Source: Desulfovibrionales bacterium (lineage in GTDB: Bacteria > Desulfobacterota > Desulfovibrionia > Desulfovibrionales > Desulfovibrionaceae). From it: DNA of 64,000 nt. The stretch is from NCBI GenBank assembly GCA_030156255.1, contig JASGMV010000009.1:1-64000 (forward strand). Reading direction: 5' to 3'. The position numbers and the translations under genes were made by a program. This document shows positions 4,334 through 45,277 of this stretch, piece by piece. Under the pieces are notes generated by a model, which was given only the letters and a program-made list of their open reading frames with translations, was not told the DNA's origin and did not search any database. Every line of letters begins with the position of its first letter. The first letter of the stretch is position 1.

Positions 4334-4972
4334 ATGAAAAAATCTCCCGCCAAAAGCAAACGCCTCGGCCGCCTTGCAACCCGTGACAACCTGCTCGAAG
4401 CCTTGGGCCGCGTGTTGGTTCGGGACGGATTTTCCGCCGTAGGCGTCAACGCCGTGGCGCGCGAAGCCGGTGTGGACAAGGTGCTTATCTACCGCTATTT
4501 CGGTGGGATGCAGGAATTGTTGGCGGCTTTTGGACAAAGGGAGAACCTCTGGCCGGATCTTATCGAACTGACCGCCGGCGACCCCACGGGTTTCGCCCGG
4601 CTGCCGGCCCGCGACAAGGCCTGTCTGCTGGCGCGCAACTTCCTCCAGGCGCTCAGAAACCGGCCGGTCGCCCGGGAAATTCTGGCGTGGGAGCTCGTGG
4701 AGCGCAATGAACTCACATCGGCGTTGGGGGCCGCAAGAGATCGAACGGCTCTCCAGATTCTCAGCATGCTGCAGCCATCCGCGGGCGAAGACGCCTTGAA
4801 GGTGGATATGGAGGCGGCCCAGGCGGTGTTGACCGCCGCTGCGAGCTATCTGGTGCTCCATTGCGGAAGGACAATGCGCTTTGCGGGTCTGGAGGCAAAC
4901 GGCGACGACGGCTGGATGCGCATCGGCCAAACCATCGACGGCATGCTGCTCGGATTATTGTCCTTCGCCTAG
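4334..4972 (+). CDS. TetR/AcrR-family transcriptional regulator
   Basis: The 212-residue product has the usual TetR length. Residues 15-60 form the N-terminal DNA-binding domain, with recognition region VNAVAREAGVDKVLIYRYFG matching the family's helix-turn-helix. The C-terminal part, Leu/Ala-rich and helical, should bind a ligand and dimerise. AAGGAG lies 8 bases before the ATG. The promoter overlaps a palindrome (4292-4307) that is the likely self-operator. The gene is divergent from the binding lipoprotein ending at 2112, a common arrangement for a regulator and its target. Its TAG stop codon lies inside the left end of a dispersed repeat element starting at 4968. The ligand is unknown. Confidence 0.88.
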   Translation: MKKSPAKSKRLGRLATRDNLLEALGRVLVRDGFSAVGVNAVAREAGVDKVLIYRYFGGMQELLAAFGQRENLWPDLIELTAGDPTGFARLPARDKACLLARNFLQALRNRPVAREILAWELVERNELTSALGAARDRTALQILSMLQPSAGEDALKVDMEAAQAVLTAAASYLVLHCGRTMRFAGLEANGDDGWMRIGQTIDGMLLGLLSFA

Positions 4973-5065
4973 ATCAAGTTAACTGCGAAAAAATCGACTG
5001 CTCGGCAAGGATTCCCCCGCAACTCCTTGCCGTGAAACAAGCATTTCAAGCGTATGATGCTTGAA
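4968..5065 (+). repeat. Dispersed hairpin element, copy 1
   Basis: One of four related intergenic elements (others at 15777, 44165, 45151). It opens with CCTAGATC, which contains the tetR stop codon. It then has the shared AGTTAACTG...GAAAAA block, a hairpin with arms CGGCAAGGA and TCCTTGCCG, and the shared right part GCATTTCAAGCGT. The third hairpin seen in copies 2 and 3 is shortened here. No reading frame is present. See the findings for the family description. Confidence 0.75.
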
Positions 5066-5127
5066 CGACGCTTGGCCGACGCAATCCTTTTCTTCCTTCC
5101 CCCCTCGAAATACGGGCCGGCCGCCTC

Positions 5128-5156
5128 TCGACCATCGGCCGGCCTCATGCTATAAG
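5128..5156 (+). promoter_or_regulatory. Candidate promoter of glpX-rpe
   Basis: TCGACC-N17-TATAAG matches sigma-70 consensus in 4 of 6 positions at each box. It lies about 75 bases before the glpX start. Two GGCCGGCC palindromes flank the -35 region, about 20 bases apart, and could be a regulator site or simply GC-rich sequence. Confidence 0.4.
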
Positions 5157-5230
5157 CCTCGCCACCGACGGAAACGCTGCAGGAACCGGCAGCAATATTC
5201 CTTTCTACAGCTTATACCTCAGGAGTGATC

Positions 5231-6214
5231 ATGCCGCAGGAAGCCCCTCAACGGAACCTGGCTCTCGACCTTTTGCGGGTAACGGAGTCCGCGGCCATGG
5301 CGTCGGCCCGCTGGCTCGGCAAAGGCGACGGCAAACGCGCGGACGGCGCGGCGGTGGAGGCCATGCGCACCAGTTTCAACGCCATGAACATGAGCGGCGT
5401 GGTGGTCATCGGCGAAGGCGAGAAGGACAGGGCGCCCATGCTTTTCAACGGAGAGGCCGTGGGCGACGGCAAGGGCCCCGGATTTGACGTGGCCGTAGAC
5501 CCTGTGGAGGGCACCAAGCTACTGGCCTTCGGCCGCCCCAACGCCATTTCCGTGGTGGCTTTGGCCCCGCGGGGGACCATGTACGATCCAGGCCCGTGCT
5601 TTTACATGCGCAAGCTGGTGGTCCCCCCCCAGGCCAAGGACGCCGTGGACATCATGGCGCCGGTCGAGGACAACCTGAAGAAGACGGCCGCCGCGCTGGA
5701 CAAAGACGTGGACGACCTTGTGGTCTTTGTTCTGGACAAACCGCGCCACCAAGGCCTGATCCAGGAAATCCGCAAGGCCGGCGCGCGCATCCAGCTACAC
5801 ACGGACGGCGACGTAGCCGGTTCGTTGATGGCCGTGACCAACACCGTGGACATGATGATCGGAACCGGCGGCACGCCGGAGGGCGTGCTTTCGGCCGCGG
5901 CCATTCGCGGCCTGGGCGGAGAGATGCAGGGTTACCTCGATCCCCAGAGCGAGGAAGAGCGTCGCAACGTGATCAACGCGGGCTACGACCTGAAACGCGT
6001 CTTGCGCACGGAGGACCTGGTGGCCAGCGACGACACGTTCTTCGCCGCCACGGGCATTTCCGGCGGAACCTTCCTGAAAGGCGTACAGTTCACCGGCCAC
6101 GGCGCCGAGACCTACTCCATGGTCATCCGCGGCAAGACCGGCGCGTACCGGGAAATCAAGACCCGGCACAATTTCGAAAAACTTATGGCCATCAGCTCCA
6201 TCGACTACGATTAG
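5231..6214 (+). CDS. glpX: Class II fructose-1,6-bisphosphatase GlpX
   Basis: The enzyme dephosphorylates fructose-1,6-bisphosphate in gluconeogenesis in the cytoplasm. The 327-residue product has the usual GlpX length and family blocks: an early MSGVVVIGEGEKD metal-binding motif, FDVAVDPVEGT with the Asp-Glu catalytic metal ligands, and a later GTGGTPEGVLSAAAIRGLGG block. I chose the ATG at 5231 because AGGAG sits 5 bases upstream; a GTG at 5225 would overlap the ribosome-binding site. It is followed by rpe in the same direction, so the pair probably supports hexose and pentose phosphate supply in an organism living on small organic acids. Confidence 0.95.
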   Translation: MPQEAPQRNLALDLLRVTESAAMASARWLGKGDGKRADGAAVEAMRTSFNAMNMSGVVVIGEGEKDRAPMLFNGEAVGDGKGPGFDVAVDPVEGTKLLAFGRPNAISVVALAPRGTMYDPGPCFYMRKLVVPPQAKDAVDIMAPVEDNLKKTAAALDKDVDDLVVFVLDKPRHQGLIQEIRKAGARIQLHTDGDVAGSLMAVTNTVDMMIGTGGTPEGVLSAAAIRGLGGEMQGYLDPQSEEERRNVINAGYDLKRVLRTEDLVASDDTFFAATGISGGTFLKGVQFTGHGAETYSMVIRGKTGAYREIKTRHNFEKLMAISSIDYD

Positions 6215-6245
6215 CTCAACGCCGTTTCAAAGGCCGCGATTTGAA

Positions 6246-6271
6246 GCAGCGCTGGAAATACGAAGCGCTGC
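6246..6271 (+). other. Hairpin between glpX and rpe
   Basis: Perfect 8-base arms GCAGCGCT and AGCGCTGC are separated by 10 bases. No T-run follows, so it is unlikely to be a full terminator. It could stabilise the glpX end or attenuate reading into rpe. Confidence 0.4.
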
Positions 6272-6368
6272 GCCGCACAAAGCGAAACCGCATTTTTGCC
6301 TTATGCGCTCAATCAAAACCACAGCATGCGGTCATGATGCAACAATGCTATAAACGGAGGCCGGCGCC

Positions 6369-7040
6369 ATGATAGAAAACAAGATCATCCTCTCGCCCTC
6401 GCTGCTGTCCTCGGACTTCGGCCGGCTCGCCGAGGAGCTGGCCGCCCTGGAGGAGGCCGGGCTCGAGTGGGTGCATTGGGACGTCATGGACGGCCGCTTT
6501 GTACCGAACATCACCTTCGGCCCGCCGGTCGTCAAGGCGTTACGCAAGCATTCCAAGCTGTTCTTCGACGTGCACCTGATGATCCAGGAGCCGGACCGCT
6601 ATCTCGCCGAATTCATCGACGCCGGGGCGGACCTTCTGTGCGTGCACGCCGAGGCCGTGACGCACCTGGAGCGCTGCGTCGCGGAAATCAGACGGCTCGG
6701 CGCCCAATGCGCCGTGGCCCTCAACCCGCATACCCCGCTGTGCATGCTGGAGCACCTGCTGCCGGAGCTGGATATGGTGCTGATCATGTCCGTAAACCCC
6801 GGGTTCGGCGGGCAGTCGTTTTTGCCCTTCACCAAGGACAAAATCCGCCGGCTGGCCCAGATGATCCAGGAAAGCGGAAGCAATGCGCGCATTCAGGTGG
6901 ACGGCGGCGTCAGTCCCGAAAACATCAAGGAGCTGGCCGACCTGGGCGCGACCATCTTCGTGTCGGGCTCTGCCTTTTTCGGCCATCCCCCGTACGCAGA
7001 ACGCTTGGCGACGTTCATGACGGCGGCGAGCATCGCCTGA
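6369..7040 (+). CDS. rpe: Ribulose-phosphate 3-epimerase
   Basis: Rpe interconverts ribulose-5-phosphate and xylulose-5-phosphate in the pentose phosphate pathway. The 223-residue TIM-barrel protein shows the family landmarks in order: SPSLLSSDFGRL near the N-terminus, HWDVMDGRFVPNITFGP with the metal-binding His and catalytic Asp, FDVHLMIQEPDRY, MSVNPGFGGQSF, and the phosphate-binding IQVDGGV and FVSGSAFFG near the end. CGGAGG lies 10 bases before the ATG. The 154-base gap to glpX contains a hairpin but no obvious strong promoter, so co-transcription is likely. Confidence 0.95.
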   Translation: MIENKIILSPSLLSSDFGRLAEELAALEEAGLEWVHWDVMDGRFVPNITFGPPVVKALRKHSKLFFDVHLMIQEPDRYLAEFIDAGADLLCVHAEAVTHLERCVAEIRRLGAQCAVALNPHTPLCMLEHLLPELDMVLIMSVNPGFGGQSFLPFTKDKIRRLAQMIQESGSNARIQVDGGVSPENIKELADLGATIFVSGSAFFGHPPYAERLATFMTAASIA

Positions 7041-7158
7041 CCGGCGGGACGCAGTTCGAGATTGCACCGTCTTGGGAGCCCGTCGCTGGAAAACAGGACG
7101 TCTCTGGTTGACGGCCCGTCGCGACGGCGCCAGCTGTTTTCATCACCCGACGCCTTGG

Positions 7159-7518
7159 CTATTGCGCAGGCGGCGAAGCTTCATCTTTCGGATAGTTATA
7201 GGTGCACGCCTGGGCGCAATAGCTGGAGCCGTAGCTGAAAATCTTGGCGCAGCCATAGGCCCCGGTCTCTCTGATATAATGCGTCTGCACGTCGTAGCAG
7301 GCGCTACGGCAGGTTTGGGCGTCGGCGTACTCCTGCTGCAGCAACTCCCTGTACGCATCGCAAATTTCGTTTTTCCACGCGCACGTATCATCCTTTTCGT
7401 AGTCAGAGCTCATACAGCGCGCCCAGACCTGGCCGGGAGTCAGCGAAGCCCCCGCGACGCAGCCGCTTAAGGACCAAACACAAAGCGCCCCCGCCAACAA
7501 AAGCACAACCTTTCGCAT
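7159..7518 (-). CDS. Small cysteine-rich lipoprotein
   Basis: I do not recognise a family. The ATG at 7518 follows GGAGG with 8-base spacing and gives a 119-residue product opening with MRKVVLLLAGALCVW and the lipobox LSGC, so the mature protein should be lipid-anchored. The mature part carries eight further cysteines in a regular spread, which suggests four disulfides and an extracytoplasmic location, plus many aromatic and charged residues. The longer frame reaching 7596 has no ribosome-binding site. It is convergent with rpe and probably monocistronic. A scaffold or stress role is possible but nothing in the sequence decides it. Confidence 0.72.
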   Translation of the reverse strand: MRKVVLLLAGALCVWSLSGCVAGASLTPGQVWARCMSSDYEKDDTCAWKNEICDAYRELLQQEYADAQTCRSACYDVQTHYIRETGAYGCAKIFSYGSSYCAQACTYNYPKDEASPPAQ

Positions 7519-7872
7519 GACCGATTCCTCCGCCGGGTCTTTTCCGACCCGCTTTTTCGGATGATAATCAGAATTGGCCGCCCCAACAAGCGGCAAACCT
7601 CAAAAACGACCCCGCGCTCCGCATCGCAATGCATGCGGGCGCCTTCAAGGGGGTACGCACCTCCGGCCGCTGCGTTTTTTTGCGGCGGGGCCGAGGCATC
7701 GCGTTGCATGAACAACTGCGGTCGAGAAAAATTCCGCCCACCGGGCTTCATCGGCCATTCGCGCGCCGGCCGACAAATGAGGAGGTCTCGCCAGGGGACG
7801 GCAGGAAAGCCGTTGCATTTTCCGAATCCGTAGCCTATTCTTGCTTCGATATTATTCTTTGTCGCACCACGC

Positions 7873-9876: not shown

Positions 9877-10008
9877 ACGCCAAACCGCTCCCTCGAAGCA
9901 ATTTCCGCTTGCCCATACGACGGAAGCCGCCCAGCTATCCAAACTATCGTCTCGAAAAAAGGCGTAACTGTATCCAAAAACGCCGCTTCGGCGCCCGCGT
10001 CCCGTGCC

Positions 10009-10330: not shown

Positions 10331-10367
10331 CACACCACAACCTCCCGCCGACCGCTCTGCTCGCCCG

Positions 10368-13313: not shown

Positions 13314-13994
13314 ATGTTGCCTGTCGGCTCGCTGGTCAACGCCGGGGCCATCATCGTCGGGAGCGTCGTCGGTCTTTCGCTGCGCGACCGCTTCCCGGAG
13401 CGCATGCGCATCTTGATCTACCAGGCGCTCGGGTTGTGCGTGATGGTCATCGGACTGCAGATGGCCTTCAAGATGACCGAGCCGCTGCTCGTCATCTTCA
13501 GCCTGATTCTTGGCGGAATGTTCGGAGAAATCGTGCGGATCGACGCGCTGTTGGAGCGTTTGGCGCAACGCGTGAAAAAGCTCGCCAGGTCCTCGGACGG
13601 CTCCTTCACCGACGGGTTCGTCTCCGCATCGCTCATGTACTGCATCGGCTCCATGGCCATTATCGGAGCCTTTGACGAAGGACTGCGGGGCGATCCGAGC
13701 CTGCTTTTCACCAAGGCCATGCTCGACGGCTTCATTTCCATCCCCCTGGCCTCCACCATGGGCATTGGCGTGCTCTTCGCCTTCGCGCCGGTTCTCGTCT
13801 ATCAGGTCGGCCTGACCCTGCTGGCCGGCGCGCTCCAGCCCTTTTTCACGGACCAACTCATCGCCCAGATCACGGCGGTGGGGGGCGTGCTCATCATGGG
13901 CATCGCCTTCGACATGCTGGGGCTCTTGACCATCCGACTGTCCAATCTGCTGCCTTCGCTCCTGGCCGCCGTTCTGCTGAGCTTGCTGCTGTAG
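13314..13994 (+). CDS. DUF554-family membrane protein
   Basis: The 226-residue, very hydrophobic product matches the DUF554 (YdfK-like) pattern: N-terminal NAGAIIVGSVVGL, then IFSLILGGMFGE, FVSASLMYCIGSMAIIGA and a GI-rich C-terminal half with ITAVGGVLIMGIAFDML. About six or seven membrane segments can be drawn. CAGGAG precedes the ATG with good spacing. The function of the family is unknown. It follows the YitT gene by 200 bases, so a shared transcript is possible but not shown. Confidence 0.88.
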   Translation: MLPVGSLVNAGAIIVGSVVGLSLRDRFPERMRILIYQALGLCVMVIGLQMAFKMTEPLLVIFSLILGGMFGEIVRIDALLERLAQRVKKLARSSDGSFTDGFVSASLMYCIGSMAIIGAFDEGLRGDPSLLFTKAMLDGFISIPLASTMGIGVLFAFAPVLVYQVGLTLLAGALQPFFTDQLIAQITAVGGVLIMGIAFDMLGLLTIRLSNLLPSLLAAVLLSLLL

Positions 13995-14119
13995 GAAGTT
14001 TCTCCCTGAAACATTTTCCGCTTGCAGCGCCTGTTTAACGACGGACCCAAGCCAGCCCGCAAACATCTCACGCAAAGGTTGCCCGCCCCCTTGCCGAGCA
14101 CAGTCCGACGCTTTCAAAG

Positions 14120-14845
14120 TCAACCTGCTCTCGGCCGGGAAGTCTGCTCCAGGGCCAACAACAGGCCGTACAACAACGCGCAGCACAGGCAAACCGAAAC
14201 CAGCGATCCGAGCCGGATCGCCGCTTCAACCACGGGCATGGCGTGCGATGCGGCCTCGGCCAGCGCTTTTTGCACCGCAACCGCCGGCGCGGCCAGTGCG
14301 GCGGCGGCCGCGGCCGCATGCAGCCGCACGCCCAGGCTGACGCGCCCGATGCGAGGCCCGGCGGCGCCTATCACCAAAGCGTTGGTCATCTGCCCGGGAA
14401 ACGTCAGAAACACGGAAGCAGCGGCCGCAACATGCGCCAAAAGCTCCATTCGAACGCCGAAGCGCGCCAGCAGAACGTGGACCAATCCGCCGGCCAGCAG
14501 GGCGAGCAGAAACACGCACAGCAGATCGAAAAACATGCGCGCCCCGCGTGGACTGAACACGGCCAGCACGCCGCAGCCGCCCCATCGCCCGTCACCCGTG
14601 CGGCGAGCCCGCATTCCTAACAACACGGGCGGGATAAACGCCAAAAGCGCCACGGCCTGAACCAATGCGCCAAGCCCGACGCCGCTGAAACTCCGTACGG
14701 CCGCCGCGGCCAACATCTGGGTTACGGCGGCCGCCAAGGAGCATTTGAGGCAGCACGCAAGAATGGCGGCGAAGTCGTCGGCTACAGCCAAAACGGCCTG
14801 CAAAAGCAAGGAGGCGGCGCCCAGCGCCGGTGGTTGGCGAGGCAT
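14120..14845 (-). CDS. Uncharacterised integral membrane protein
   Basis: From the ATG at 14845 this frame gives 241 residues, with about six hydrophobic segments very rich in Ala, Leu and Val. Examples are LGALVQAVALLAFIPPVLLG, FDLLCVFLLALLAGGLVHVL and SLVSVCLCCALLYGLLLAL. I do not recognise a family. Its first 250 bases overlap the 3' part of the psiE frame in another phase. The membrane pattern makes this frame the more credible one in the overlap. It is probably translationally coupled to psiE. Confidence 0.55.
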   Translation of the reverse strand: MPRQPPALGAASLLLQAVLAVADDFAAILACCLKCSLAAAVTQMLAAAAVRSFSGVGLGALVQAVALLAFIPPVLLGMRARRTGDGRWGGCGVLAVFSPRGARMFFDLLCVFLLALLAGGLVHVLLARFGVRMELLAHVAAAASVFLTFPGQMTNALVIGAAGPRIGRVSLGVRLHAAAAAAALAAPAVAVQKALAEAASHAMPVVEAAIRLGSLVSVCLCCALLYGLLLALEQTSRPRAG

Positions 14846-15776: not shown

Positions 15777-15823
15777 TTAGAGCATATCACGCTAAAACTT
15801 TTTCCAAGTTGAACCGTTCTAAA
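15777..15823 (-). repeat. Dispersed hairpin element, copy 4 (ends only)
   Basis: Read on the minus strand this 47-base stretch starts TTAGAACGGTTCAACTTGG and ends TTAGCGTGATATGCTCTAA. It has both ends of the family seen at 4968, 44165 and 45151 but lacks the middle hairpins, like an internal deletion derivative. Its left end contains the TAG stop of the helicase gene (15819-15821). Confidence 0.65.
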
Positions 15824-18800
15824 CCTCGAACAACATTTCCAGGTCCTCGCGGGTCAGGGACTTGAGAGCCGGCTGGCCCGGAATGATCGCCTCGGCCACG
15901 TCCTTCTTCTGCTCCTGCAGCTTCAGAATCTTCTCCTCCACCGTGTTCTGGCAGATCATCTTGTAGGCGAAGACCTGCCGTTTCTGGCCGATGCGGTGGG
16001 TGCGGTCCGTGGCCTGGTTCTCCACGGCCGGGTTCCACCACGGGTCGTAGTGGATCACGTAGTCGGCCGAGGTCAGGTTCAGGCCGGTGCCGCCGGCCTT
16101 AAGGGAGATGAGGAAGATGGGAATGTCCGGGTTCTCGTTGAAGCGGTCCACCTGCTCGAAGCGGTCCTTGCTGGAGCCGTCCAGATAGGCGAAGGGAATG
16201 TCCTTGATGGACAGCCAGGAGCGGATCACGTGCAGCATCTGCACGAACTGCGAGAACACCAGCACCTTGTGCCCGCCTTCCACGATGTCCGTGACCAGGT
16301 CTTTGAAGGCGTCGAACTTGCCCGAGGGCAGATTGGTCTCCACACCGGGCATGTCCAGTTTCAAAAGCCGCGGGTGGCAGCATATCTGGCGCAGTTTGAG
16401 CAAGGCGTCCAGAATGGACATCTGGGACTTGGCCATGCCCTTCTCCTCCACGGTCTTGAGAACCTGCTCTTTGAGCTTGGAGGCCAGGGCGTTGTACAAC
16501 TCGCGCTGTTCGTCGATGAGGTCGCAGTAATGGACGGTCTCGATCTTGGGCGGCAGGTCCTTGGCCACTTCCTTCTTGGTGCGGCGCAGGATGAACGGCT
16601 TGACCCGGTTGCGCAAGAGCTCCAGGGTCTCGTCGTCTCCGTCCTTGATGGGCTTGACGATGCCCCGCTGGAAGGTGTGCTGGGAGCCCAGAAAGCCCGG
16701 CATGAGAAATTCGAACAAGGACCACAGCTCGAACAGGTTGTTCTCGATGGGCGTGCCCGACAGGCACAGCCGCATGCCCGCGTCCAGCCGGCGCACGGAC
16801 TTGGCCGTGATGGTGTTGGGGTTCTTGATGTTCTGGGCCTCGTCCAGAATAACCAGATTGTAGGAGTACTTGAGCAACTCCTCCAGGTCGCGGCGCAGCA
16901 GCGCGTAGGTGGTGACGACCAAATCCGAACTCTTGATTTTCCGGAACAGGTCCTCGCGCCGGGAGCCGTAGATGATCAGCCGTGAAAGACTGGGCGTGAA
17001 CTTCGCCGCCTCGCGGTCCCAGTTGGGCAGCACCGAGGTGGGCACGATGATCAGGTTGGGCCCTTTGGCGCCCCGCGAAATGCAATGCTGGATGAACGAG
17101 AGGGTCTGGATGGTCTTTCCCAGGCCCATTTCGTCGGCCAGGATGCCGCCGAAGCCGTAATCGCGCAGGAAGTTGAGGTACGACAGCCCCTGAACCTGGT
17201 ACGGCCGCAACGTGGCGTTGACCCCTTCGGGCTGGCCCACGTCCTTGATCTGGCGAAAGCTGCTGATTTTCTCGCGAAGCTTGACGAAGTAGTCGTCGGT
17301 CTTGGCGTCGGGAATGTCGTCCAGCAGACGGTCCAGAACGGGAATTTCGTACTGTTGGAACTGCTTCTTGGGCGGCTTTTCGGGATCGAAGCCAAGGGTT
17401 TTGAGCGTCTGGCCCAGGCGGCGCAGCCAGGGCTCGGGCAGGCTGGTGTAGGAGCCGTCCTTGAGCTGGACGTAGCGCTTGCCTTTGGTCCAGGCCTCCC
17501 AGATGACCTCGATGGGCACTTTCTGGTCGTCGTAGGTAACGTTCAGGTCCAGCTCGAACCACTTCTCCTCTTCGTCCGAATTGATCTCGGCCGCGATGCT
17601 CGGTTTGGACAACCGGACCTTGTAGCGAGTGAGGTTCTTTTCGCCGTAGACGCGGTAGGCCTCCACCAACTGCGGGTAGTGGTCCAGAAGGAAATTGATA
17701 GCCTCCTCCTGCTCCATGAACCAGGCGCTGTTGGAGCGGGGCTGGAAGCCCATGGAGGCCAATTCGGCGAACAGCATGGCCTCCTCTTCGCGATCCCGGC
17801 GAATGAGGTAGGAGGAGCCCTCGAAGTGGTAGCTGCCGGTCTGCAGCTCGGGGTTGGGACCCGGCAGCGTGACCTCGCCGTGCTCGGTGTCGTAAACGTT
17901 CTGGATTTTGAGGGTCAGCAGGCTGCCTTCCTCGTCCAGGAACAATTTCGGATCGAAGGAGGCGGTCACGAAGATGGGCCCCATGCGCTCCAGGAAGTCC
18001 TCCTGGCCGTGCAGGTCCGAGACGGCGAACTGGGTCCAAACCCGGTCGATGAACTCGGAAATATCGACATGCGGGATGATGGGCGCTTCGGAAGCCATTT
18101 CCTGGACCAACTCCGGATCGAGCCCGGTCTGGACCGGATAGAATCCGTATTTCCAGTAGACCCACATGGGCAGCCGGCCGTAGAGGAAAATGTCCTGGCC
18201 GAGAATGGAGAACGGAGGCTTGCCCTCGCGGGCCAGCAGGATGTCGAAGGACAGCCCGTCTTCGGAAAGCTGGGGGGAAAGCTTGAGCTGCAGCGTCTCG
18301 GACTCTATGCGCAACGGCTTGTCCGTATCCTCGTGGAAGAGGTAGTACTCCCTGCGCACCGCCCGGAAAAACCAGGAGAGCAGCCCCGGCGGCAACACCA
18401 CGCGATGGCCGAAATAATCGAGGTTGTGCCCTATCTGTTCGGCTACGAAAGGAAGCTGGGGAGAATTTTCGCACCAGCCTTCATTGTTGATGATCTGCTC
18501 CAGGGTGATCTCGTTCTGCACCTGCGAAATGCCGGACTTGTTCTGCCGGGCGCGGAAAAAGGCCACCTGGAGGCGGCCCGGTTCGGGATAGAACCGGTAG
18601 ATGATGTAATGTTGGCCGGCCTCGGGCTCGAGCCGCGTTGCGAAATAGGGACGAAAGGCCTGGCGCCAGTCCGTGCGGGACTTGGGCGCCTCCTCTTCCG
18701 ACTCCGCGCTCAGGGAGCCGAGCAGCTTCAAGGCCGTGGCGGAAACGTGCCGGCAGACGCCGGTGAACGAATCGGGACAATTGCAGTAAAAGTTCACCGA

Positions 18801-19025
18801 TCCGTCGCGAATGTTGACGCCAAGCTCCGAAGCGTAATTCTGGAAGTCGTCGCCCTGGACCTGGCCGTCCACATCCCAGAATTGCTCGCGCTTTTTCAGC
18901 TCCACTTTCTGCACGCCGCCGGAGTCCACAATGGACTGAGCGCCTTCCAATATATATTCCGGAACGGTGTTCCGGACAAAATGGAGCAACAGCTCCCTGA
19001 CTTTTTCCTCTTCCGAATAACTCAT
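15819..19025 (-). CDS. SNF2-family DEAD/DEAH helicase with SWIM zinc finger
   Basis: This 1068-residue protein is a bacterial SNF2/HepA-like ATPase expected to translocate on double-stranded DNA or remodel protein-DNA complexes. Residues 81-93 carry a SWIM-type zinc finger (Cys81, Cys83, Cys91, His93). Residues about 150-560 form the poorly conserved bacterial SNF2-associated region. The SNF2 motor fills the C-terminal half: DEMGLGKT (Walker A), LDEAQNIKN (DEAQ box), LSGTPIENNL, and the helicase C motifs ending YDPWWNPAVENQATDR then THRIGQ. The gene is monocistronic, with a hairpin and repeat copy 4 directly after its stop codon. Its specific partner (RNA polymerase recycling or repair) cannot be told from sequence. 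Confidence 0.93.
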   Translation of the reverse strand: MSYSEEEKVRELLLHFVRNTVPEYILEGAQSIVDSGGVQKVELKKREQFWDVDGQVQGDDFQNYASELGVNIRDGSVNFYCNCPDSFTGVCRHVSATALKLLGSLSAESEEEAPKSRTDWRQAFRPYFATRLEPEAGQHYIIYRFYPEPGRLQVAFFRARQNKSGISQVQNEITLEQIINNEGWCENSPQLPFVAEQIGHNLDYFGHRVVLPPGLLSWFFRAVRREYYLFHEDTDKPLRIESETLQLKLSPQLSEDGLSFDILLAREGKPPFSILGQDIFLYGRLPMWVYWKYGFYPVQTGLDPELVQEMASEAPIIPHVDISEFIDRVWTQFAVSDLHGQEDFLERMGPIFVTASFDPKLFLDEEGSLLTLKIQNVYDTEHGEVTLPGPNPELQTGSYHFEGSSYLIRRDREEEAMLFAELASMGFQPRSNSAWFMEQEEAINFLLDHYPQLVEAYRVYGEKNLTRYKVRLSKPSIAAEINSDEEEKWFELDLNVTYDDQKVPIEVIWEAWTKGKRYVQLKDGSYTSLPEPWLRRLGQTLKTLGFDPEKPPKKQFQQYEIPVLDRLLDDIPDAKTDDYFVKLREKISSFRQIKDVGQPEGVNATLRPYQVQGLSYLNFLRDYGFGGILADEMGLGKTIQTLSFIQHCISRGAKGPNLIIVPTSVLPNWDREAAKFTPSLSRLIIYGSRREDLFRKIKSSDLVVTTYALLRRDLEELLKYSYNLVILDEAQNIKNPNTITAKSVRRLDAGMRLCLSGTPIENNLFELWSLFEFLMPGFLGSQHTFQRGIVKPIKDGDDETLELLRNRVKPFILRRTKKEVAKDLPPKIETVHYCDLIDEQRELYNALASKLKEQVLKTVEEKGMAKSQMSILDALLKLRQICCHPRLLKLDMPGVETNLPSGKFDAFKDLVTDIVEGGHKVLVFSQFVQMLHVIRSWLSIKDIPFAYLDGSSKDRFEQVDRFNENPDIPIFLISLKAGGTGLNLTSADYVIHYDPWWNPAVENQATDRTHRIGQKRQVFAYKMICQNTVEEKILKLQEQKKDVAEAIIPGQPALKSLTREDLEMLFEV

Positions 19026-20903: not shown

Positions 20904-23065
20904 TCCGGATTACCGAGATCATGGACAAGGTCGGCTCCTACATCGACAATCCCGACCTTGGCCTGATCCAACGGGCGTACATCTTTTCGGCGAAGGCCCA
21001 TGAGGGACAGGTGCGCCTGTCGGGCGAACCCTACCTCATGCACCCCCTCAACGTGGCGCTGATCCTGGCGAACATGCGCATGGACGAGGCGTCCATCGCC
21101 GCGGGTCTGCTCCACGACACCGTGGAGGACACCCACGCCACGGTGGACGAAATCGAGGAGCTTTTCGGCGAGAACGTCGCCGACATCGTGGACGGGGTGA
21201 CCAAGATCAGCTTGATGGAGTTCGACTCCAAGGAGGCGGCCAAGGGCGAAAGCATCCGAAAAATGATCCTGGCCATGGCCGAGGACATCCGCGTGCTCAT
21301 CGTCAAGCTGGCCGACCGGTTGCACAATCTGCGAACCCTGGGCTACCAGTCCTCCGCCAAGCAACGGGCCATCGCCCAAGAAACCATGGACCTCTATTCG
21401 CCTCTGGCCAACCGCCTGGGGCTCCACCACGTCAAGCTGGAGATGGACGACCTGTGCCTCAAATACCTCAAGCCGGACATCTACGAGCAGATCAAAAACG
21501 GCGTGAGCCACCGCTTCACGAGCTCCCAGCAGTACATCGACCAGGTCATCTCCAGGCTGGAGAAGCTGCTGGCCAAGAACAAGATTAAAGGACGCATCTT
21601 CGGCCGGGCCAAGAACGTCTATTCCATTTACAGCAAAATGGTCCGCCAGAGGCTGGACCTGGACCAGGTCCACGACCTCATCGCCTTCCGGATCATCGTG
21701 CCGGCCGTGAAGGACTGCTACGCCGTGCTCGGCCTCGTCCACGCCGAATGGATGCCGGCGCCCGGCAGGTTCAAGGACTACATCTCCATTCCCAAAGCCA
21801 ACATGTACCAGTCGCTGCACACCACGGTCATCGGACCGGAGGGCGAACGCATCGAGATACAAATCCGCACGGAGGAGATGCACAAAATCGCGGAATACGG
21901 CGTGGCCGCCCATTGGCAATACAAGGAAGGCCCCAAAAAAGACGGACACTCCCGCGACGCCCAACGCTTCACTTGGCTGCGCCAAATCCTGGACTGGCAA
22001 AGGGAGCTGAAGGACCCTCGCGAGTTCATGGCCTCCCTGCGCTTCGACCTGTTCAGCGACGAAGTCTACGTGTTCACGCCGCACGGCGAGGTGAAGGAGC
22101 TGCCGGACGGAGCCACGCCCGTGGACTTCGCCTTTCTCATCCACACCGAGGTGGGAACCCACTGTTCCGGAGCGCGGGTGAACGGCAAGCTCGTGCCGTT
22201 GCACACCCCGCTCACGAACGGGGACACGGTGGAGATCTTCACGGACAAAAACCGCAGCCCCAGCCGGGACTGGCTCAAGTTCGTCAAGACGGCCAAGGCC
22301 CGCACCCGGATCAAGCAATGGATTCGCACCGAGGAGCGCGCCAAGGCCATCTCCCTGGGCCGAGAGATGCTCGAAAAGGAAGGCCGGCGCATGGACATGA
22401 ACGTCGCCAAGCTCATCCGCGACGGGCGCATGGCCAAGCTGGCGGAAAAATTCTCCTTCACCAGCGCCGACGACCTCATGTCCTACGTCGGCTATTCGCG
22501 CGTCACGCCGCGCAAAGTGCTCCGGCGCATGTGGGACATGCTGCGCGGCGAAGGAGAGTCGCCGCAGGAGCCGGAGGAGCCGCCGCGCCAGGAGCGCAAG
22601 GACGGCCAGAAAACCCCGCCCAAGTCCGAAGCGGTGCTCATCAAGGGCGTGGACGACGTGCTGCTCCGTTTTGCGGGCTGCTGCAATCCGCTGCCCGGCG
22701 ATCCCATCGTGGGCTACATCAGCCGCGGCCGGGGCGTCACCATCCACACAAGCGACTGCCCCAACGTCAAGACCTTCGAACCGGAGCGGATCATCAGCGT
22801 CTCCTGGGCCGGGGAGGAGGACGACCATCCGTACCCGGCCAAGATCAAGTTCAAGTGCAAAAACACCAAAGGCGTTCTGGCCCGGGTCTGCATGACGCTC
22901 GCCGACCAGGACGTCAACATCGCCTCCGGAAATTTCTCCTCCAGCGTGGACGGATTCACGGAAATGGAGTTCACCGTCGAGGTTCGCGACGCCGACCACC
23001 TGTATCGGACCATCTCCAAGGTCACGAAAGTGGATGGAGTGTTGGAGGTGAGCCGGGTATCCTGA
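20849..23065 (+). CDS. rel: Bifunctional (p)ppGpp synthetase/hydrolase Rel/SpoT
   Basis: The 738-residue product has the full Rel architecture. The HD hydrolase domain (about 45-200) has the metal-binding His-Asp at 89-90 and EDT following. The synthetase domain lies at about 240-380, then TGS (about 400-460), a helical region and the C-terminal ACT domain (about 660-735). The RFKD motif in GRFKDYISIPKANMYQS is typical of bifunctional enzymes, whereas monofunctional RelA usually has an acidic version. With an intact HD site, both synthesis and breakdown of the alarmone are expected. The start is uncertain: ATG at 20849, 20867 or 20921 are possible and none has a strong Shine-Dalgarno. Overlap with the upstream lipoprotein gene suggests coupling. 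Confidence 0.93.
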   Translation: MVDTETMATEAITTTRPLIRITEIMDKVGSYIDNPDLGLIQRAYIFSAKAHEGQVRLSGEPYLMHPLNVALILANMRMDEASIAAGLLHDTVEDTHATVDEIEELFGENVADIVDGVTKISLMEFDSKEAAKGESIRKMILAMAEDIRVLIVKLADRLHNLRTLGYQSSAKQRAIAQETMDLYSPLANRLGLHHVKLEMDDLCLKYLKPDIYEQIKNGVSHRFTSSQQYIDQVISRLEKLLAKNKIKGRIFGRAKNVYSIYSKMVRQRLDLDQVHDLIAFRIIVPAVKDCYAVLGLVHAEWMPAPGRFKDYISIPKANMYQSLHTTVIGPEGERIEIQIRTEEMHKIAEYGVAAHWQYKEGPKKDGHSRDAQRFTWLRQILDWQRELKDPREFMASLRFDLFSDEVYVFTPHGEVKELPDGATPVDFAFLIHTEVGTHCSGARVNGKLVPLHTPLTNGDTVEIFTDKNRSPSRDWLKFVKTAKARTRIKQWIRTEERAKAISLGREMLEKEGRRMDMNVAKLIRDGRMAKLAEKFSFTSADDLMSYVGYSRVTPRKVLRRMWDMLRGEGESPQEPEEPPRQERKDGQKTPPKSEAVLIKGVDDVLLRFAGCCNPLPGDPIVGYISRGRGVTIHTSDCPNVKTFEPERIISVSWAGEEDDHPYPAKIKFKCKNTKGVLARVCMTLADQDVNIASGNFSSSVDGFTEMEFTVEVRDADHLYRTISKVTKVDGVLEVSRVS

Positions 23066-39913: not shown

Positions 39914-39933
39914 GGCTGGCGTGGATGGCTCTC

Positions 39934-39992
39934 CCTGCCGATCCGACCGGTCGCCGGATCGGACTTTGACGGCGCCTCCATCGGCAGGTTTT
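39934..39992 (+). terminator. Compound terminator after RNase J
   Basis: Outer arms CCTGCCGAT and ATCGGCAGG are followed by TTTTC, and an inner hairpin CCGATCCG/CGGATCGG lies within. The structure ends the long operon. Confidence 0.7.
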
Positions 39993-40024
39993 CAATATAA
40001 TAACCGATTTCGCACCAGTGAACG

Positions 40025-40054
40025 TTGACCCCGGAGCCTTCCGGCTGGTACGCT
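40025..40054 (+). promoter_or_regulatory. Candidate promoter of the FAH-family gene
   Basis: TTGACC-N18-TACGCT lies 60 bases before the ATG at 40114. The -35 matches 5 of 6, the -10 only 3 of 6. Confidence 0.35.
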
Positions 40055-40113
40055 AATTTCGTTTCCTAACGACAAACAACTTGCCGTTCCAACACAAAAC
40101 CGAAAGAGGCGTC

Positions 40114-40893
40114 ATGCGAGTCATCCGTGTACGGCATAGGAATCAAACTTTTTACGCTTCCCTGGTCGACGAAAAAAATGTCCAATGCCTAAACAAGAAC
40201 CTTGATCTGAACGAGCCCATCCCTCTGAGCGAAATCCAGCTGTTACCGGTCGTTTGGCCGACCAAAATCGTCTGTATCGGCATCAACTACCGCGGCCATG
40301 CGGAGGAATTGGGCCTGCCTGTTCCGGAAGAACCGATGCTTTTTCTCAAACCGCCGTCCTCCGTCATCGGCAACGGACAGCCCATCATCCTGCCCCGGAT
40401 GTCGTCGCGAGTGGATTACGAAGGGGAACTGGCCATTGTCATCGGCCAAAGCTGCCGGAACGCCAGCCTTGAAGACGCCAAAGCCTGCGTGTTCGGCTAC
40501 GCCTGCGCCAACGACATCACCGCCCGCGACCTTCAGAAGCGCGACGGCCAGTACGGACGGTGCAAGGGGTTCGATACGTTTTGTCCCGTGGGTCCCTGGA
40601 TCGAAACCGAAGTGGGAGACCCCGGCGCCCTGAACATCGCCACCCGGGTCAACGGAGAGATCAAACAAAACGCCAATACCTCGGACATGGTCTTTTCTCC
40701 CTTGGAGTTGGTGAGCTTCATCTCCCGGGTGATGACGCTGCTGCCGGGGGACGTTGTGCTCACGGGCACGCCGCCGGGCATCGGCCAGATCCATGAAGCG
40801 GACGAAGTTCGCGTGGAGATCGAAAACGTCGGCCTGCTGATCAACGTCGTGGCCTCGGAATCCGGTTCGACCGGCTCCGCCGTGCTCCAGTAA
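40114..40893 (+). CDS. Fumarylacetoacetate hydrolase family protein
   Basis: The 259-residue protein belongs to the FAH superfamily of metal-dependent hydrolases, decarboxylases and isomerases acting on beta-keto or 2-oxo acids. Typical blocks are [39 protein letters not shown] with the metal-binding Glu residues, [15 protein letters not shown] and [16 protein letters not shown]. The ATG at 40114 follows AAAGAGG; the frame extends upstream only through a non-ATG codon. The subfamily often includes oxaloacetate decarboxylase or acylpyruvase-type enzymes; the substrate is not certain. It has its own promoter candidate and terminator. Confidence 0.9.
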
Positions 40894-40936
40894 CCGCTCG
40901 CGGGGGCCGTTTTCCGCAGCGGACGGTTTTTCTTTT
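40894..40936 (+). terminator. Terminator after the FAH-family gene
   Basis: CCGCT-c-GCGG pairs with CCGC-AGCGG around a 10-base loop and is followed by a T-rich tract (TTTTTCTTTT). Confidence 0.65.
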
Positions 40937-41068
40937 GCTTGCCTTGCGTCTCCAGCTAGGGTAAATAACCCTGTTTTACAAATCACACGCTTCGGCGCGC
41001 CTGGGTTCCTTTCCATCGTGGAAGGGCGGCGATCAATTCCGAAGCGGAGGAAAAAACCCGGAGGACTT

Positions 41069-41887
41069 ATGGCTTACGTCACCATGAAGCAGATGCTGGA
41101 GACCGGCGTCCACTTCGGCCACCAGACCCGCCGTTGGAATCCGAAGATGCGTCCTTACATCTTCGGCGCCCGCAACGGCATCCACATCATCGACCTGCAG
41201 CAGACCGTGAAACTGTTCCAGACGGCCCACGATTTCGTTTCGGACGTGGTTGCCGGCGGGGGCAAGGTGATTTTCGTGGGCACGAAGCGGCAAGCCCAGG
41301 AGTCGGTCAAGGCCGAAGCCGAGCGGGCCGGACAGTTTTACGTCACCCATCGTTGGATGGGCGGCATGTTGACCAACTTCCAGACCATCAAAAAGAGCAT
41401 CGACCGGCTGAAGATGCTGGAAACCTGGTTCGAGGACGGCACCATCAGCAAGTTCCCCAAAAAGGAAGTGGTCATGATGGGCCGGGAAATCGAAAAACTG
41501 AACAACACCCTCGGCGGCATCAAGGACATGGACGCCCTGCCGGAAGCCGCGTTCATCGTGGATCCCAAGCGGGAGCAGATTGCGGTCATGGAGTGCCGGA
41601 AGCTGGGCATCCCCGTGGTGGCCATCACCGACACCAACTGCGATCCGGATATCATCGACTACATCGTCCCGGGCAACGACGACGCCATTCGGGCCATCAA
41701 GTTGTTCGTGGCCCACATCGCCGACGCCTGCCTCGAGGGCGACGCCCGCAACAAGGATATGGACGCGGTCAAAGCGCAGGAGCAGGCGGCCGAAAAGCAA
41801 GCCGAAGCAACCGAACCGGCCGAAGCAGCAGCAGAGATTCCGGCGGAAGCTCCCGAGGCTGCGGTGGAAGCCTCCGAGGCCGAGTAA
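41069..41887 (+). CDS. rpsB: 30S ribosomal protein S2
   Basis: S2 assembles late on the small subunit. The ATG at 41069 has GGAGG 4 bases upstream. The 272-residue protein has the typical start [20 protein letters not shown], the [13 protein letters not shown] block and the Asp-rich [12 protein letters not shown] block. The last 40 residues form an Ala/Glu/Pro-rich acidic tail that goes beyond the core fold. It is followed by tsf after 37 bases, the conserved rpsB-tsf order. Confidence 0.97.
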
Positions 41888-41924
41888 TTCGACAGCCCAC
41901 TACAGCCATAAGGAGCTGATGATC

Positions 41925-42791
41925 ATGGCGATCACTGCACAGCAAGTCAAAGCCCTGCGCGATAAAACCGGCGCAGGCATGATGGATTGCAAAAAAGCCC
42001 TGGCCGAATGCGGCGGGGATGAAGAAAAAGCTATCACCTACCTTCGCGAGAAGGGCCTGGCCAAGGCCGCCAAACGCGCCGACCGGGCCGCCTCCGAAGG
42101 CGTCATCGGCCTGTTCGAGTCCGCCGACGGAGCCACCGCCGCGCTGGTGGAGTTCTGCTGCGAGACCGACTTCGTGGCCAAGAGCGACGACTTCAAGGCC
42201 TTTGCGGTCAAACTCGCGGACAAGACCGCCGCCTCCCTGCCCGAAGGCGTGGCTCCCATCGCCGAGAGCGCGTTGGACGACACCGGCCTCAAGGGCGAGT
42301 TCAGCGGACTGCTGGCGGCGCTGGGCGAAAACATCCAGCCCGGCCGCAGCGCCAAGCTCATCGCCAAGGGCGGCATTGTGGGCTCCTACGTGCACAGCAA
42401 CGGCAAGCTCGGCGTGCTGGTGGAAGTCCTGGCCGACAACCCCGTGGACGCCGTGAAGGACTTCGCCCACGACGCCGCCATGCAGGTGGCCGCCGCCAAT
42501 CCCACCGCCGTCTACCCGGAGGAGCTTCCCCAAGACGTGCTGGAAAAGGAAAAAGCCATCTACAAGCAGCAGGCCATGGACGAGGGCAAGCCCGAAAACA
42601 TCGCCGAAAAGATCGTACTCGGCCGGATCAACAAGTTCTACAAGGAAGTCTGCCTCAACGAGCAGCCCTTTATCAAGGACGACAAGAAAACCATCAAGCA
42701 ACTGGCCGCCGAAGTCGGCAAAACGGCTGGCTGCGAGGTGAAGCTCGGACGGTTCGTCCGCCTGAATCTGGGCGAAACAACCGAGGCCTAG
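41925..42791 (+). CDS. tsf: Translation elongation factor Ts
   Basis: EF-Ts exchanges GDP on EF-Tu. I chose the ATG at 41925 because AGGAG is 9 bases upstream; an ATG two codons earlier is only 3 bases from it. The 288-residue protein opens [20 protein letters not shown] and contains the CETDFV motif and both core repeats. A terminator follows, which separates it from pyrH. Confidence 0.97.
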
Positions 42792-42806
42792 GCGAAGCTA
42801 CGGTGA

Positions 42807-42836
42807 AAAACGGGCCTGCGAGGGCCCGTTTTTTTT
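42807..42836 (+). terminator. Rho-independent terminator after tsf
   Basis: ACGGGCC and GGGCCCGT arms around a 5-base loop are followed by a run of eight T residues. It probably limits reading from rpsB-tsf into pyrH. Confidence 0.9.
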
Positions 42837-42892
42837 CCGCTTCCGGGGGTCGCTCCCGAAAAGCGCCAACACATAACGACAAGGCGATTCGA

Positions 42893-43618
42893 ATGGCCGA
42901 TCTCGCATATACACGTGTTCTTCTGAAACTCTCGGGCGAAGCCTTGGCCGGAGGCGACCCTTTCGGCATCCAACCCGCGGCCGTGAACACATTCTGCCAG
43001 GAAATCGCCGAAGTGGTGAGCCTGGGAGCCCAAGTGGCCCTGGTCATCGGAGGAGGCAACATCTTCCGAGGCATGTCCGCCTCGGCCAAAGGCATGGACC
43101 GCTCCTCAGCGGACTACATGGGCATGCTGGCCACGGTGCTCAACGCTCTGGCCGTGCAGGACGCTCTGGAAAAGATTCACTGCAAGACCCGGGTCATGAG
43201 CGCCATCTCCATGCGCCAGGTCTGCGAACCGTACATCCGCCGCAGGGCCGTCCGGCATTTGGAAAAAGGCCGCGTGGTCATCTGCGCCGCAGGAACCGGC
43301 AATCCCTACTTCACCACGGACACCGCCGCCGCTCTGCGGGCCATGGAATTGAAATGCCAGGCGATCTTCAAGGCGACCCGGGTCGACGGCGTCTACGACA
43401 AGGATCCGCTCCAATATCCCGACGCCAAAATGTTCGACCATATCAGTTATCTCGAAAGCCTGGAGCGCCGGCTAAAAGTTATGGACTCCACCGCCATTTC
43501 GCTAGCCATGGATAACAACCTTCCCATCCTCGTCTTCAATCTCAACCGGCCCGGAAACATCAAGCGGGTGGTCCAAGGCGAACGGATTGGGACCATTGTG
43601 CAAGGAGGTCAAGAGTGA
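42893..43618 (+). CDS. pyrH: UMP kinase
   Basis: PyrH phosphorylates UMP to UDP for nucleotide and envelope precursor supply. The 241-residue amino-acid-kinase-fold protein has [24 protein letters not shown], the [19 protein letters not shown] block and the TDTAAALRA motif. AAGGCG precedes the ATG. Its last codons overlap frr by four bases (GTGA), so the two are coupled. Confidence 0.96.
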
Positions 43619-44169
43619 AACAGGTCATAGAGGAAGGAAGCTCGCGCATGGACGGGGCTCTGTCCAGCCTGCAGACACAGTACGCCAAGCTGCGCACCGG
43701 ACGGGCCTCGACAAGTCTGGTCGATAACATCAAAGTAGAGTATTATGGGACTCCGACGCCGTTGAACCAGATCGCCTCCATCTCCGTCCCGGACTCCAGG
43801 ACGATCACCATCCAACCGTGGGATAAAGGGGCCTTTGGCGACGTGGAGCGCTCCATACAAAAATCCGATCTCGGCCTCAATCCCATCAATGACGGCAAGA
43901 TCATCCGGATATCCATTCCGCCGCTGACTGAAGAACGGCGCAAGGATCTGGTCAAGGTGGCCAAGAAATACGCCGAAGACGCCAAGATCGCCGTGCGCAA
44001 CGTTCGCCGCGACCTCAACGAAACCCTCAAGAAGATGCAGAAAAACAAGGAAATCACCGAAGACGATCTGCACTCGGGCATGGATGAGGTCCAATCCACT
44101 ACCGACGAATACGTCAAGACCGTCGATGAGGCGTTCGCGGAAAAAGAAAAGGAAATTCTGGAAATCTAG
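43615..44169 (+). CDS. frr: Ribosome recycling factor
   Basis: RRF splits post-termination ribosomes with EF-G. The GTG at 43615 follows GGAGG by 7 bases. The 184-residue protein has the hallmark [33 protein letters not shown] and the coiled three-helix C-terminal part. The TAG stop codon sits inside the left terminal repeat of element copy 2, which then fills the gap to uppS. Confidence 0.96.
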
Positions 44170-44290
44170 AGCAGTTAACTGTGAAAAAGTTGATCTGCTC
44201 TGTAAGAATTTGCGAGCAAATTTTTGCCGCGAAATGCTTGCAGGCGGCCCCGCCGTTAAGCAAGTATTCGAAGCGTAAAAACGCTCTAGA
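44165..44290 (+). repeat. Dispersed hairpin element, copy 2 (126 bases)
   Basis: The element has perfect 8-base terminal inverted repeats, TCTAGAGC at 44165-44172 and GCTCTAGA at 44283-44290. Between them are three imperfect hairpins, including GAAATGCTTG/CAAGTATTCG enclosing GGCGG/CCG. It fills almost the whole frr-uppS gap. The left end contains the frr stop codon, and the right end supplies AGAGG, the only Shine-Dalgarno candidate for uppS. Related copies lie at 4968, 15777 and 45151. Confidence 0.85.
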
Positions 44291-44299
44291 GGCGCTATT

Positions 44300-45007
44300 G
44301 TGGCTAATATGAACTTGCCGCGCCATGTCGCCGTCATCATGGACGGCAACGGCCGCTGGGCCAAAGCTCGAAACCTTTCCCGTAGCGACGGCCACAAGGC
44401 CGGCGCCGAGGCGGCGAAAGCCATTGTCGTGCGCTGCCGGGAATTAGGCATCCCCTACCTCACGCTGTACACATTCTCCAAGGAGAACTGGTCAAGGCCG
44501 AAAGAGGAAGTCAGCTTCCTTTTCGACCTGCTGATCCGTTTCCTCAATCGGGAGCTGGACACCCTTTTGGCGCAGTCCGTCCGGTTGCAGGTGTTGGGAG
44601 AGTTGGACGATTTGCCTTTCGGCGTCCGGCAGGTGGTGCATCGGGTTTGCGAGAAGACCCAGGGAGAAAAGGCCCTGACCTTGAATCTGGCGCTCAATTA
44701 TTCCGGACGGGCGGAAATTCTGCGCGCCTGCCGCCGCCTGGCCGCCAAGGGCCTCCCTCCCGAGGAAATCACCGAGGAGGCCTTCCAGCGCGAACTCTAC
44801 ACCGCAGGCCAGCCGGACCCGGACATCATCATCCGCACCAGCGGAGAGCTTCGGCTCTCCAATTACCTGCTCTTCCAGGCGGCCTACTCGGAGTTCTACT
44901 TCACGGACGTGCATTGGCCGGATTTCACGCCGGCCCACCTCGAAGACGCCATCCTCGACTACCAGCAGCGGCAGCGCCGTTTCGGCAAAACCGGCGAGCA
45001 GCTGTAA
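44300..45007 (+). CDS. uppS: Undecaprenyl diphosphate synthase
   Basis: UppS makes the C55 lipid carrier for peptidoglycan and LPS. The 235-residue cis-prenyltransferase has HVAVIMDGNGRWAKARN (catalytic Asp), GHKAGAEAAK, LTLYTFSKENW and the C-terminal DIIIRTSGELRLSNYLLFQ and YFTDVHWPDF blocks. I use the GTG at 44300, with AGAGG 7 bases upstream from the end of the repeat element. The order pyrH-frr-uppS is widely conserved; here a mobile-like element lies between frr and uppS. Confidence 0.95.
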   Translation: MANMNLPRHVAVIMDGNGRWAKARNLSRSDGHKAGAEAAKAIVVRCRELGIPYLTLYTFSKENWSRPKEEVSFLFDLLIRFLNRELDTLLAQSVRLQVLGELDDLPFGVRQVVHRVCEKTQGEKALTLNLALNYSGRAEILRACRRLAAKGLPPEEITEEAFQRELYTAGQPDPDIIIRTSGELRLSNYLLFQAAYSEFYFTDVHWPDFTPAHLEDAILDYQQRQRRFGKTGEQL

Positions 45008-45040
45008 CGCCGGTCCCGATCCGATCTCAATAACGACGGA

Positions 45041-45080
45041 AACAACAAGACGCGGTCAGATCGGACCGCGTCTTGTTGTT
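45041..45080 (+). terminator. Strong hairpin after uppS
   Basis: Perfect 17-base arms (45041-45057 and 45064-45080, beginning AACAACAAGACGCGG) enclose a 6-base loop. The 3' arm is partly T-rich but no long T-run follows. Confidence 0.7.
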
Positions 45081-45150
45081 TCGTACGACGGCGCCCCTTC
45101 TTTCAAAGGAGCCGAACGCCAAGGCATAACAATCTCAACTCAAGCGTTCC

Positions 45151-45277
45151 TGGAGCAGTTTAACTTTGAAAAAGTTCAACTGCTCGGCAAGGATTTGTCC
45201 GCAAATCCTTGCCGCGAAATGCTTGTAGGCGAGCTACGCTCGCCGCAAAGCAAGCATTTCAAGCGTAATATGGTCTA
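45151..45277 (+). repeat. Dispersed hairpin element, copy 3
   Basis: This copy has the best-preserved secondary structure. GAGCAGTT/AACTGCTC frames the first hairpin. CGGCAAGGATTTG pairs perfectly with CAAATCCTTGCCG (13 bases). GAAATGCTTG pairs with CAAGCATTTC and encloses GGCGAGC/GCTCGCC. Its terminal repeats have decayed (TGGAGC left, GGTCTA right). The right end contains, on the minus strand, the TAG stop of the gene at 45275. Confidence 0.85.

Follow-up and report, generated by a model that had tools for sequence, protein, structure and literature searches.

A miniature element of Desulfovibrio relatives that overlaps TAG stop codons and is probably moved by an IS630-family transposase

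A repeat of about 129 bp, which lies between genes and whose ends can overlap the TAG stop codon of a neighbour, was analyzed in the first 64,000 nucleotides (the window) of contig JASGMV010000009.1 of a Desulfovibrionales bacterium (GCA_030156255.1), in the remainder of this draft genome and in related genomes. The repeat is very probably a non-autonomous miniature inverted-repeat transposable element (MITE) moved in trans by an IS630-family (Tc1/mariner-like, DDE) transposase. The repeat and its ends, the YTAR context (Y, C or T; R, A or G), the TA at both junctions, the overlap with stop codons and the matching ends of IS630 insertion sequences (IS) in relatives can be read directly from the DNA. 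We infer in addition that the copies have actually been mobilised, and that selection rather than targeting is the cause of their position.

An earlier note, made from the window alone, had placed one repeat at four sites and described a terminal repeat overlapping the TAG of a neighbouring gene in each of them. The element was found at all four, the overlap held for each open reading frame (ORF), and with a decayed copy the window total came to five. In the following list the names tetR, SNF2 helicase and secreted protein are those of the earlier note, and E values are from a covariance model of the repeat:

4969 to 5065, plus strand: internally shortened copy of 97 bp (E 6e-9); its left end overlaps TAG 4970-4972 of ORF 4334-4972 (tetR).
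14006 to 14133, minus strand: decayed copy, ends not intact (E 4e-6); its right end is 15 bases from the TAG of ORF 13314-13994.
15777 to 15822, minus strand: short copy of 46 bp with the left end fused to the right end and without the middle; its left end overlaps the TAG (complement of 15819-15821) of the minus-strand ORF 15819-19025 (SNF2 helicase).
43615 to 44169, plus strand: frr (ribosome recycling factor), host gene with an insertion in its stop codon.
44166 to 44289, plus strand: copy of 124 bp with CTAG at both ends (E 3e-21); its left end overlaps the frr TAG 44167-44169 and its right end is 10 bases before the uppS ORF as listed (44300).
45150 to 45278, plus strand: full-length copy of 129 bp (E 6e-34); its right end overlaps the TAG (complement of 45275-45277) of the minus-strand ORF 45275-45829 (secreted protein).

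The earlier note had taken its fourth copy (45151-45277) for one with two ends only. That copy is full length at 129 bp, and the one reduced to two ends is the copy at 15777-15822, whose ends agree with the consensus in 38 of 44 bases (23 of 27 in one and 15 of 17 in the other) and which was absent from the covariance-model matches in its own genome. ORF 45275-45829, which ends in the full-length copy, had no Pfam match at E 0.01.

The draft genome (G000; 3.84 Mb, 106 contigs) was searched with the 45150-45278 copy, giving 47 DNA matches (best 40 of 105 candidates scored), and with the covariance model, built from 21 copies. The model returned 125 rows at E<=1 with the best 150 of 1830 candidates scored, and from the same scoring 90 places were kept at E<=0.0022 after removal of opposite-strand and fragment duplicates, a count in which further copies may be missed and the weakest rows may be chance. 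The repeat itself is beyond chance. With about 129 bp, too short for a transposase, and 90 kept places in 3.8 Mb, it has the size and abundance of a MITE. Thirteen contigs terminate inside a copy or no more than about 40 bases from one (C6, C28, C31, C38, C45, C46, C51, C85, C87, C89, C93, C104 and C105), as a repeat would be expected to cause; since contigs break at copies, the copy number may be underestimated.

The consensus reads Y-TA-GAGCA...TGCTC-TA-R over about 129 bp with three hairpins (in full YTAGAGCAGTTTAACTTTGAAAAAGTTTAACTGCTCGGCAAGGATTTGTCCGCAAATCCTTGCCGCGAAATGCTTGTAGGCGAGCTACGCTCGCCGTGAAGCAAGCATTTCAAGCGTAATATGCTCTAR, Y and R being taken from the junctions), and well-preserved copies carry the terminal inverted repeats TAGAGCA...TGCTCTA expected of a MITE. 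In aligned junctions TAGAGC on the left and GCTCTA on the right were mostly constant and the bases beyond TA varied. Since the outer bases vary and some copies lie between TTA and TAA, the mobile part starts with GAGC and the duplicated target is TA. A four-base CTAG duplication was considered and dropped: several copies are bordered by TTAG at their left end and by CTAA at their right end, which fits TA only. Among own copies with both TA intact, 15 of 20 had Y outside the left TA and R outside the right one, and in relatives the same held for 46 of 52 chosen copies. As background, 1864 TA at stop codons or between genes were counted in 320,549 bases of own sequence, and 312 of them were in YTAR, so that the excess had P 1e-8 for the own copies and, against this same own-genome background, 1e-29 for those of relatives.

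Duplication of TA together with an empty site, another mark of a MITE, was seen in few cases: one good, one approximate and the frr-uppS interval. In the good case locus L351 of genome G223 reads CTAG-element-CTAGTGGAGC and the homologous place in L344 of G213 reads CCCCTAGTGGAGC, the sequence at the element-free site being CCCCTAGTGGAGCTTGCC; both flanks align, yet about 10 bases immediately left of the site differ. A consistent pair is formed by L354 (filled) and L360 (empty), whose flanks differ by about 20% and whose empty site is CTGG. At another place where G213 has the element, G223 carries a palindrome of IS-like ends (GCATTTTAACTTTGAAATG...CATTTCAAAGTTAAT; L351, reverse complement 2412-2458). 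For frr, 30 loci including the own one were compared, from 32 genomes with a match. The C-terminal residues of the protein were alike in all 30, which end in 12 TAA, 10 TAG and 8 TGA stops. In the own genome the frr stop and the uppS motif are 172 apart, or 52 after subtraction of the 120-bp insertion; the spacing is 34-59 in 20 of the 27 relatives with a located motif (in two others none was located).

The candidate partner was sought among 247 genomes of the family, of which 48 had a match to DDE_3 (PF13358) and 96 to DUF4096 (PF13340, IS5-type); inverted ends beside TA were scanned in 61 fetched loci and in 30 more from the transposase search. Six IS630 copies with TAGAGC ends were found in five related genomes (G008, G015, G025 twice, G079 and G267). 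Their ends are TAGAGCATTTTAACTTTTAAAA and close variants and lie about 990-1000 bp apart (in G267 either about 990 or 1136). As expected if a MITE depends on IS630, the ends are shared: over 21 bases the best match, in G079, is identical to the element at 20 on the left and 17 on the right, and four others are identical at 17-19 and 15-18, respectively, whereas 23 other IS630- or IS5-type elements match at no more than 11 of 21. The G079 IS stands at the beginning of its contig, and the same genome also holds elements like those of the window (141.6 bits). The G267 transposase has DDE_3 and helix-turn-helix domains; in G008 DDE_3 is in one frame and the helix-turn-helix in another, and the G079 transposase is likewise split across two overlapping frames, an arrangement suggestive of frameshifted expression. 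When the G267 transposase was used as a protein query, 24 of the 247 genomes were found to have a relative, and the element was present in 16 of these 24 vs 39 of the 223 without a relative, counts that are uncorrected for kinship and come from genomes that are not independent. A strict-pattern scan of all loci for ends 400-2500 bp apart found none, the pattern being probably too strict. A different mini-element, which starts with TAGAGCATCTT and by eye has the same first hairpin layout and another body, occurs at L037, L046 and L053 (G026); several MITE families may share one IS630.

Both TAA and TAG read TAR, so that either becomes a YTAR site when C or T comes before it, and since the first base of the element is G at both ends, insertion into either stop leaves TAG. 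This agrees with the proposal of the earlier note that the element re-creates the stop codon: the mobile part starts with G and the stop stays TAG. The position of stops was analyzed, with a self-made gene caller trained on the own genome, in the 66 of the 90 own copies with at least one intact TA end plus flank, a set that is skewed by selection because an end used as a stop stays intact. The TA begins the stop codon of a called gene in 25 of the 66, one of which (copy 45150) was assigned by hand because the caller missed the ORF. The hit gene reads TAG, except in 4 of the 25, where the copy is mutated and it reads TAA. Distances from stop to element end peak at zero (15 on the left, 8 on the right); no other distance has more than two copies, except +29 on the right (four, from within the element), and one contig-cut copy was counted at offset -3, its match starting at model position 4. 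The expected share at stops is 8% from all stop-codon and intergenic TA, 20% from YTAR and 25% from CTAG, against which 25 of 66 gives P 2e-11, 6e-4 (binomial) and 0.02, respectively; with all 90 copies as the denominator the excess over YTAR is weak (P 0.045).

In relatives 64 copies were chosen from 106 rows, opposite-strand, duplicate and weak rows and the L033-L061 loci being dropped. Among the 61 with an intact TA end, several of them from sister genomes, a frame open for at least 100 codons enters the intact end in the stop frame in 28, vs 8 and 12 in the control frames, and 27 of the 28 have an actual stop codon at the end. Genome-wide enrichment at stop codons, a check proposed in the earlier note, was therefore found in both sets. 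No called gene contains the greater part of any of the 90 own copies. Between divergent genes there are 5 of the 75 own copies with both neighbours called, vs 21 of 73 YTAR sites, a null derived from the window only. Stop codons are thus probably for the most part available and tolerated targets, and the availability of YTAR together with the loss of harmful insertions would explain most of the pattern. The earlier note had left it between an element that targets gene 3' ends and one that is tolerated there: tolerance is the better fit, since stops make up 20% of the YTAR sites outside gene bodies and the excess over this share is modest.

The own genome also contains one IS5-family (IS427-like) IS (L110:971-1829; contig C40, about 20937-21795) with ends TAGATAGTGTAGTCACGAGAT and the domains PF13340 and PF01609; its insertion site is a CTAG in which a 196-codon open frame terminates. 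The same stop-restoring outcome therefore arises with another transposase family.

These observations can be accommodated in a simple scheme. The IS630 transposase would recognise the terminal repeat TA-GAGCA(T/G)TTTAACTTTGAAA at both ends of the element, excise it and insert it into a TA, preferably within YTAR (CTAG, TTAA), duplicating the TA. A gene hit in its TAA or TAG would keep its own TA and gain the G, so that its stop would be TAG in either orientation and the protein unchanged. With YTAR over-represented at stops, insertions inside genes lost and those in promoters disfavoured, copies would accumulate at and behind gene 3' ends.

The element is widespread among the relatives. A search of a named genome collection (from which own-genome records were possibly excluded) with a degenerate middle-hairpin pattern gave 77 matching stretches, all of them titled Desulfovibrio sp., Desulfovibrionaceae or Deltaproteobacteria metagenome-assembled genomes. 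Within the family the covariance model matched 55 of the 247 genomes; across the order it matched 67 of 348, of which 64 belong to the own family and 3 to a single genus of a different family. Copies within single genomes were 97-100% (G125, 12 copies), 98-100% (G213, 7 copies) and 99-100% (G223, 8 copies) identical, a sign of recent movement.

Folding energies were compared with those of shuffled sequences for five copies. The three near full length had z -8.4, -7.8 and -6.3, the 97-bp copy -2.7 and the short copy -0.4. In an alignment of 29 copies, two own and one from each of 27 other genomes, 96% of the cells pair and compensatory changes occur at 25 of the 37 consensus pairs. Double-sided changes were found in 142 cells vs 40 (standard deviation 6) when shuffled and at most 25 with slid partners, counts that are inflated by a structure drawn from the same alignment, by structure-aware choice of copies (mostly the best per genome) and by sequence kinship. 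Even so the size of the effect is large, and covariation in the hairpins is strong. A role of the hairpins as terminators was rejected, as no T run was seen by eye behind them. The pairing is not obviously required by transposition, and reasons for keeping the middle could be a use of the RNA behind genes, a need for a cruciform or the spread of few master copies. A more speculative suggestion, which we hold only tentatively, is that the three-hairpin core is a selected functional part and that the element is adapted to gene 3' ends, restoring the stop and giving the mRNA a folded 3' tail. If so, the tail would render an insertion neutral or even useful to the host, through mRNA stability, read-through or decay control.

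Other origins of the repeat were considered. Strong folding of the full-length copies and the many copies at gene ends are what would be seen if the repeats were immobile, ancestral 3' untranslated structures or terminators. This reading, which the earlier note had named as one that would overturn its own, is contradicted by the empty sites; copies also lie behind unrelated genes, are nearly identical within genomes and lack a T run, and the reading has next to no likelihood. REP (repetitive extragenic palindromic) sequences and BIMEs (bacterial interspersed mosaic elements) are defined by a tagged hairpin that lacks a pair of inverted ends and does not duplicate its target. An element of this kind moved by a RAYT (IS200/IS605-type) transposase could also leave TAG through its GTAG tag, and it would account for the stable hairpins; REP termini are reported as TAG stops of flanking ORFs (PMC3733652). 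Against it count the pair of inverted ends, the TA that borders the element on either side, the empty site, the palindromic nature of the YTAR target and the existence of IS630 elements whose ends are the same. On the inverted ends, the TA junctions and the IS630 ends we rejected this origin, a RAYT gene itself not having been searched for, and give it very little likelihood; the REP-like alternative of the earlier note likewise fits poorly with inverted repeats at both ends and TA duplication. Its other suggestion, a MITE, is supported by the terminal inverted repeats, TA in YTAR, the empty site and the IS630 ends in relatives. It is very unlikely that an IS5-family (IS427-type) transposase moves this MITE. 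Such transposases likewise insert into YTAR with TA at both junctions, and the IS in C40 provides one in the own genome; its ends, on the other hand, match those of the element at 7 of 21 bases, the compared IS5-type ends at no more than 10, and the loci with ends resolved in the 61-locus scan showed no IS5-type element whose ends are GAGCA.

A different question is whether the machinery is drawn specifically to stops or gene 3' ends, by sequence, termination or a bound factor, beyond its preference for YTAR. The excess over the YTAR expectation in the own genome and the stop-frame count in relatives argue for this. The weaker excess over CTAG and with all 90 copies, and the selection that keeps stop-serving ends intact, argue against it, as does the finding that no open frame of at least 100 codons terminates at any of the 8 ends in four of the matching IS630 copies; we consider such targeting unlikely. 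For movement by IS630, several points count against the interpretation preferred here. Neither the DDE_3 search nor that with the G267 transposase found an IS630 with these ends in the own draft, so that the same-genome partner of an IS630-dependent MITE is missing there, and the sole own DDE_3 match is weak and lies in a remnant of an apparently different branch (by eye). G015 and G267, which have IS with matching ends, lacked any hit to the element model at E<=1e-4, although in G015 a stretch of 25 bases matches the element's left end, and the left flank of the best-matching IS, in G079, is unseen, as the IS begins at the first base of its contig. The sole good empty site has a diverged left border and the L354/L360 site is blurred by divergence; a second L344/L351 site is uninformative, its partner carrying a different palindrome. 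The frr-uppS comparison was made with genomes of other genera, and 7 of the 27 relatives have longer spacers of their own (120-381). The own IS630-type remnant (L031:742-1728, contig C5) was rejected as the partner of the element: its C-terminal residues differ by eye, unaligned, from the partner family and the end scan found no inverted ends. As many copies coincide with breaks in the draft, the assembly could lack an IS that is present in several copies; the partner either sits in assembly gaps or has been lost from this genome.

With movement by IS630, an abundant repeat of Desulfovibrio relatives gains a mechanism and a probable partner enzyme. The rule that emerges is simple: a TA-targeting element that starts with G can enter a TAA or TAG stop without consequence. 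The stop codon would then be a safe harbour, which predicts which mobile elements can accumulate in dense genomes. Copies of the element also break assemblies in draft genomes.

A scan of the window with Rfam at gathering scores returned five tRNAs only; three consecutive tRNA genes lie at 10-240 on the minus strand, two stretches being 97% identical over 76 bases. No Desulfovibrio element of this kind was found in the searched titles and starts of abstracts, a coverage outside which most subscription journals fall. We take the element as a new family of a known kind, with an unexplained conserved core.

In the literature REPs are associated with RAYTs. Those REPs that are GTAG-tagged resemble the present element in their hairpins, their intergenic location and ends that often give flanking ORFs a TAG stop (PMC3733652). 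REPs are palindromes of 20-40 bp, and the element of Desulfovibrio relatives differs from them in its two inverted ends, TA at both junctions and IS630 partner. ERIC, RUP and NEMIS are well-known examples of small bacterial MITEs that have TA ends and duplicate TA (PMC2229807). The enterobacterial ERIC (IRU, RU-1) is likewise a MITE-like element of 127 bp with short inverted repeats, TA ends and TA duplication. One RU-1 insertion appears to have eliminated a stop codon and lengthened the gene (PMC2759123), whereas here, in a comparison by description only, the first base of the element restores the stop. ISY100 of Synechocystis, also of the IS630 family, offers a model for the mechanism: its purified transposase acts on the inverted repeats, which it binds, is described as needing no other protein, and inserts nearly exclusively into TA, duplicating it (PMC2170065). 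ISY100 is autonomous, and the likeness considered here is one of mechanism. Nearest in logic is RUP of Streptococcus pneumoniae, about 107 bp long, with a TA target, 110 copies in one genome, inverted repeats that resemble IS630 (IS630-Spn1) and a predicted folded transcript (PMC2229807, PMC3049150). RUP differs, as far as descriptions can be compared, in its host phylum, its AT-richness and its proposed insertion in or near IS elements, and shares with the element described here both IS630-like ends and the TA target.

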